This document shows positions 19,841-38,670 of a stretch of DNA of 64,000 nucleotides, piece after piece. The notes beneath the pieces were generated by a model. It had not been told where the DNA came from and ran no database searches. It worked only from the letters and a program-made list of their open reading frames with translations. Source of the DNA: Candidatus Crickella merdequi (GTDB lineage: Bacteria > Bacillota > Clostridia > Peptostreptococcales > Anaerovoracaceae); contig JAGHUT010000045.1 in NCBI GenBank assembly GCA_018064645.1, positions 1 through 64,000 of the forward strand. The letters run 5' to 3'. Each line of letters begins with the position of its first letter. Within the stretch, counting starts at the first letter, position 1. The position numbers and the translations under genes are program-made.

Positions 19841-19943
19841 ATTGTTAAGTATAACACAAATTGAAGGTGGTGAGATTTAAAGTTTTTGTGTCTTGCGCCA
19901 AAAGCCTTTGGAGTTGGAGGCTTGGCGCTATAGATTTTGGAGG

Positions 19944-20141
19944 CTTGGCGCTATAGCGTCAAGCCTTCTCTTTGAGACCCGGTGTTTCATCAAAAAAAGC
20001 CTCACTCTTCATTGGAAACGTCTCTATAGAAGAGCAGGGTCTCTTTCGAGACCCGTTTTTTGTGCAAAACCAGCCCAAACAGCATTGATTTGCCACAACC
20101 ATCGGGTCTCAAAGCAGAGTCTAACCGCCTATACGCCAGAA
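19944..20141. repeat. Structured dispersed repeat, copy A (MITE-like or ncRNA-like)
   Basis: Ends TTGGCGcTATA / TATACGCCAGAA; nested stems GAGACCCGGTG...CATCGGGTCTC and GGGTCTCtttcGAGACCCGTTTTTT; aligns with copy B at 38149-38333. Confidence 0.6.
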
Positions 20142-20283
20142 ACAAATTGTGAAGACCGTGTCGAATATTCACGAACACTCGATTTCTGTGCTATAGAGGG
20201 ATAGCCTCTCATCCGGGCCCCATCAAAAGATTGTTTCACGCCCAAAAAAAAGAAACTGACCGCTAAGCGATCAGTTTTATTCA

Positions 20284-37796: not shown

Positions 37797-38148
37797 TTAT
37801 GCAAGAAGATATTCTTGATCTGCAATAGAATTTTGCTTGACAATAGGTGAACTGTATCCTAAACTCCTATTAAGATTACTGATGGATTTGGCATGAGAAA
37901 CAATTCTCTGACCGATATTGCCATCGGTAATTTTTTATGTTTGTAATATCATAGAAACAATCACCCTTTGCAATTCTTTTGATTGAACGATACACCGCTT
38001 TTGGCAGATCGTTCAACCAAGCCAAGGTCTTTTGCGGGAATACTGTCAGCGTAACTCGCAATGTTTTCGATGTTTTCCTATCTACAGATATGGATAGATG
38101 TCCCTGGGAGAACAATTTTGATAAGTATTAGTTCTTCACAAAGCGAAG

Positions 38149-38333
38149 TTGGCGTATACGGGCGTAAGGTCTCTTTTGGGACCCGGTGAAAACGCGGCAA
38201 AGCCGCTTCTCTAGAACGTAAACGTCACTATAGAAGAGTAGGGTCTCTTTTGAGACCCGTTTTTTACCCAAAACACTTTAATTTAGGGTTAATACCGGGT
38301 CCTGACAAAGAGGTTAATCGCATATACGCCAGA
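38149..38333. repeat. Structured dispersed repeat, copy B
   Basis: TTGGCGTATA...TATACGCCAGAA; shares AACGTCaCTATAGAAGAGtAGGGTCTCTTttGAGACCCGTTTTTT and the outer GGACCCGGT/ACCGGGTCC stem with copy A. Confidence 0.6.
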
Positions 38334-38598
38334 AATGAATTTATTCTTCGGTTGTAAAGTCTTTCTTTGACGCTGCTTCAATTTGAACGAGTCGTCTGGA
38401 ACACGGTTTTTTCCCTATGGGAGCCTCACCCTCGATATTACATCCATGATATTGCATCAACAACAGAATATACTTAAGCTTTTTTGCAAAAATTTTCCCT
38501 ATATTAACTGAGCCATTCAATTTACATCCCTCGGAAGCCGGTTAGCTGGTTCGAAATGGATGTAAATATGCGGGCGAGCGGCGTATTGGGAAGAATCG

Positions 38599-38670
38599 GC
38601 TGTCCCGCCGACTGCCGATGTCCTGGACCAACACGAGCTGTCCCGCCGACGTCGATGTCCTGGACCAACA
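38599..38670. repeat. Direct repeat, 2 copies, period 38 bp
   Basis: GCTGTCCCGCCGACtgcCGATGTCCTGGACCAACA / GCTGTCCCGCCGACgtCGATGTCCTGGACCAACA. Confidence 0.85.

Follow-up and report, generated by a model that had tools for sequence, protein, structure and literature searches.

A family of fold-back repeats with a central intrinsic-terminator hairpin in Candidatus Crickella merdequi

Small interspersed intergenic repeats confined to one or two species are exemplified by BOX, RUP and SPRITE of Streptococcus pneumoniae (PMC3049150): BOX is modular with paired ends, SPRITE is Rho-independent-terminator-like, lies near gene 3' ends and has no clear target-site duplication (TSD), whereas RUP and BOX give TSDs. 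The ERIC and Correia (NEMIS) MITEs are intergenic imperfect palindromes of 100-220 bp with terminal inverted repeats (TIRs), which fold as long hairpins when transcribed (PMC10969869). REPINs, defined as inverted REP doublets, are non-autonomous and fold back, with a short module inverted around a variable spacer (PMC3116915). A systematic survey of structured repeat families has been published (PMC2267715).

The repeat described here resembles the pneumococcal families in its small size, intergenic dispersal and narrow host range, BOX in its modular build with paired ends, and SPRITE in its terminator, its position near gene 3' ends and the lack of a clear TSD. It differs from them in that the terminator is nested in a palindromic modular element and only seven copies exist, and from RUP and BOX in that no TSD was seen. 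With ERIC and Correia it has length, imperfect palindrome, TIRs, intergenic sites and folding as a long hairpin in common, unlike them in its ends, its host phylum, its lower copy number, its internal terminator and the absence of a visible TSD. The inverted module, variable spacer and fold-back structure recall REPINs, from which it departs by a 35-nt bipartite module of fixed spacing in place of a REP, by its few copies, and by the different repeats of the RAYT-like gene in this genome. No sequence relation to BOX, RUP or SPRITE was recognised, these being compared by description. Our verdict is a new family of a known kind; as the comparison is by description, membership of no named family is claimed.

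The window, by which we mean the whole stretch of 64,000 nt that was analysed, contains two related copies at 19935-20155 (copy A) and 38133-38347 (copy B). The original prediction had named two loci sharing an ordered set of modules; both copies and all modules listed are present and the loci are correct, but the extents given (19944-20141 and 38149-38333) fall short of the true element. Further copies, on whose existence that prediction depended, were retrieved from other contigs by searching the genome, a draft MAG, with either window copy. A covariance model (R1) built on the seven aligned copies then returned exactly seven full-length matches in the genome and no others, located on the window contig (C10, at 19.9 kb and 38.1 kb) and on contigs C21, C38, C60, C8 and C75. 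A match on C76 was rejected as a copy, being just an ordinary terminator hairpin. Each copy measures about 217 bp (214-221 bp as trimmed) and is non-coding. Within the window, the terminator motif and the motif AACGTCNCTATAGAAGAGNAGGGTCTC each occur exactly twice, with 0 occurrences expected by shuffling. The features of the two window copies, which make up two of the seven, are:

19935..20155, + strand: copy A, whole (covariance model 192.8 bits at 19929-20155)
19946..19980, + strand: copy A, left 35-nt module TGGCGCTATA...TTTGAGACCC
20037..20061, + strand: copy A, intrinsic-terminator hairpin GGGTCTC-TTTC-GAGACCC-GTTTTTT
20104..20138, - strand: copy A, right 35-nt module, inverted, TGGCGTATA...TTTGAGACCC
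20145..20155, - strand: copy A, right outer end TCTTCACAATT, read on the - strand
38034..38132, + strand: decayed Imp-YgjV-like gene end left of copy B (the same gene end abuts the C60 copy)
38133..38347, + strand: copy B, whole (its flanks are remnants of the genes flanking the C60 copy)
38133..38141, + strand: copy B, left outer end TCTTCACAA
38150..38184, + strand: copy B, left 35-nt module TGGCGTATA...TTTGGGACCC
38241..38265, + strand: copy B, intrinsic-terminator hairpin GGGTCTC-TTTT-GAGACCC-GTTTTTT
38297..38331, - strand: copy B, right 35-nt module, inverted, degenerate, with the outer TTGTGAAGA lost
38341..38383, - strand: xanthine/uracil-permease gene-end remnant on the other side of copy B, as at C60

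The right end of copy A is intact; its left outermost end is eroded and partly duplicated. At window positions 19914-19957, TTGGAGGCTTGGCGCTATAG is tandemly duplicated at this left end, in place of the usual outer end.

Every copy forms an imperfect palindrome: its left and right modules are inverted, and its outer stem is long. Intact ends on both sides read TCTTCACAATTNNTTTC inward, followed by a bipartite module TGGCGNATA-N16-TTTGAGACCC whose length is 35 nt without exception in the 16 instances examined, both blocks being conserved and the middle largely variable. The elements end in TIRs, as had been proposed, which consist of TCTTCACAATT...AATTGTGAAGA and the inverted 35-nt modules; the outer ends prove longer than first described. 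The centre is occupied by an intrinsic-terminator hairpin, GGGTCTC-N4-GAGACCC-GTTTTTT, with the terminator on one strand only. The C8 and C75 copies have a third module (TTTCTGGCGAATA...GAGACCC), repeated directly in the middle, with this terminator as its second half; in the other five copies GGCGA alone is absent there, a difference that would follow if the element now needs no modules beyond those at its ends. The simplest history would start from a three-module ancestor, in which the middle module was stripped of its end motif while its terminator persisted. Fold-back strength relative to shuffled sequences reaches z scores of -2.8 to -10 across the seven copies (-6.9 and -6.7 for the window copies). 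An antiterminator formed between the left arm and the terminator arm was considered and rejected, as conservation among the copies does not extend to the alternative left hairpin.

All seven copies are intergenic and, with the exception of copy B and C60, lie in unrelated surroundings without clear flanking sequence in common. Copy B and C60 both retain remnants of the same two flanking genes (Imp-YgjV-like and xanthine/uracil permease), decayed at copy B, and therefore share their locus by duplication; judged by these remnants, copy B is not an independent insertion, so the family of seven copies represents about six. Empty sites, which the original prediction had suggested looking for, were seen in the closest relative found (G005): at the copy-A site its spacer measures 71 bp compared to about 446 bp and the element is absent, and it is likewise absent at the C60 site. 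These are the two empty sites seen directly, in spacers too diverged to define exact junctions; for the other sites, flank searches in G005, whose whole genome lacks the element, gave no clean joined sites. TSDs, also suggested at the time, did not emerge: no direct repeat exceeded chance at any of the seven copies, as judged by a control in which cross-locus pairs gave longer matches than true pairs. Compared with MITEs in general, the unit is non-coding, multi-copy and within 50-500 bp, and has TIRs and empty sites; the TSDs expected on (young) copies were not found at the seven copies. According to a MITE review, direct repeats decay over time (PMC10969869).

Outside the host genome, the covariance model detected no convincing copy in 46 other species of the genus or elsewhere among the 395 genomes sampled from the order; one congener (G013) gave a weak match (20.5 bits, E 0.07), which was put down to chance. 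Plasmid and phage records yielded no match, and neither the core pattern nor the module pattern occurred in viral contigs. A scan of species genomes and viral contigs with the end pattern gave 11 matches, all 11 without the element and in unrelated sequence. Searches of Rfam at gathering and relaxed thresholds produced chance-level matches only, none of them at the gathering score, and the match to an Rfam family or known repeat that would have spoken against a new element was not found. The repeat is restricted to this species among those searched.

Between copies A and B, the outer stem changes from GAGACCCG/CGGGTCTC to GGGACCCG/CGGGTCCT, a single A-U to G-C pair change, for which C60, a near-duplicate of copy B, carries the G-U intermediate. 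A second clean double pair change, U-A to C-G, is found in the terminator stem of C75. The pair change behind the initial claim of outer-stem covariation is real, but concerns one pair only, and overall covariation is weak compared to shuffles: the full structure has 5 double-changed pairs versus 2.1 in shuffles (8/500 shuffles reach 5), and its covariation score of 0.120 lies within the shuffled range (0.110; 80/500). Stable folding, the conserved terminator and the two double pair changes could be accounted for by a small structured RNA gene family, an sRNA ending at the internal terminator that multiplied in this species. We consider this improbable in view of the covariation score, the lack of a promoter-like site above chance in copies A and B, the missing Rfam match and copies in relatives, and the inverted half beyond the terminator, which would lie outside such an RNA and is as conserved as the rest. 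With weak covariation, and with no Rfam family and no copy in the relatives searched, neither the proposed ncRNA ending at the internal terminator nor the view of preserved pairing as selection on RNA structure could be upheld. The evidence for a selected RNA is poor; seven related palindrome copies cannot separate RNA selection from shared ancestry, and paired variation in the stems of a palindromic repeat, from one copy to another, does not have to imply that an RNA is under selection. The fixed 35-nt spacing fits a constraint on DNA ends better than an RNA gene, and its presence at both ends, together with the equal conservation beyond the terminator, favours recognition of the ends as DNA.

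Inverted modules around a spacer, hairpin potential and the lack of a TSD would agree with a REPIN-like element whose mover is a REP-associated tyrosine transposase (RAYT, Y1), and the genome encodes both an IS200 TnpA and a RAYT-like Y1 protein. However, the RAYT-like gene lies between inverted repeats of its own that are unrelated to the element (GGACGGTCC...GGTACCGACTC), the modules of the element are absent from both Y1 loci, the end module does not have the form of a simple REP hairpin, and the copy number is far below that of typical REPs, which leaves this reading very improbable. Both enzymes were rejected as the mover, RAYT because the repeats flanking its gene are unrelated and no element module is found there, and IS200 because its locus has other hairpins, no element module and unlike ends. 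At 5/6 independent sites the terminator runs in the direction of the gene immediately upstream. This would suit a terminator cassette that was distributed through recombination or segmental duplication and kept because it terminates upstream genes, and segmental duplication is indeed how copy B and C60 spread. Yet the orientation bias falls short of significance (about 0.11 one-sided), copy A runs antisense to the genes on both sides, the terminal ends, well away from the terminator, are conserved too, and the remaining copies have no clear common flanks, so that a cassette of this kind is unlikely.

The two Y1 loci are of separate interest. The RAYT-like Y1 transposase gene (L124, G000:C18, 1462-2211) is flanked by long inverted REP-like repeats (GGACGGTCC...GGACCATTTGGTCC...GGTACCGACTC) near 1268-1310 and 2213-2258; the locus is probably a REP/RAYT system of its own within this clostridial genome. 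The second locus (L123, G000:C67, 1465-1935) is an apparently intact IS200-type element with a 156-aa TnpA and terminal hairpins.

We favour a non-autonomous, fold-back interspersed repeat of the MITE/ERIC/BOX-like kind, which we regard as likely. The MITE-like dispersed repeat envisaged at the outset is borne out by seven copies with TIRs at unrelated intergenic sites, by the empty sites in G005 and by absence from 46 congeners; the observations themselves comprise the six or so independent insertions, the fixed geometry of the inverted ends and the empty sites. Counting against a mobile repeat are the low copy number and the lack of two signs that transposition should leave, TSDs and a transposase with the same ends, along with the draft state of the host MAG and there being no more than two directly observed empty sites. 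The two inverted ends (TCTTCACAATTNNTTTC with TGGCGNATA-N16-TTTGAGACCC) are probably recognised as DNA by a recombinase or transposase acting in trans, and past mobility would be due to an enzyme that has since been lost or that the MAG does not include. With up to 3 mismatches allowed, neither the host genome nor the genus yielded a transposase sharing these ends, although repeated IS copies are often absent from MAGs; the extra matches of an end-pattern search for an autonomous parent were unpaired and did not exceed the level of controls. The central terminator, which probably started as the latter half of a third module, may now be a passenger or an insulator, and would stop read-through transcription coming from the left. 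As the element lies downstream of a same-strand gene in 5/6 insertions, it may serve as the 3' terminator of the upstream gene. It is doubtful that the family exemplifies a new tri-modular class of mobile DNA in Clostridia, with three 35-nt bipartite recognition modules (two direct, one inverted), a middle module turned terminator and TSD-free movement. The repeat adds a family to a clostridial lineage in which no match had turned up, and illustrates one route by which a fold-back element can come to contain a terminator; each insertion of such an element could rewire the transcription of its neighbours.

Further along the window, at 38599-38670, two direct repeats (GCTGTCCCGCCGAC...CGATGTCCTGGACCAACA) with a spacing of 37-38 are located just past the 3' end of the [FeFe] hydrogenase gene.
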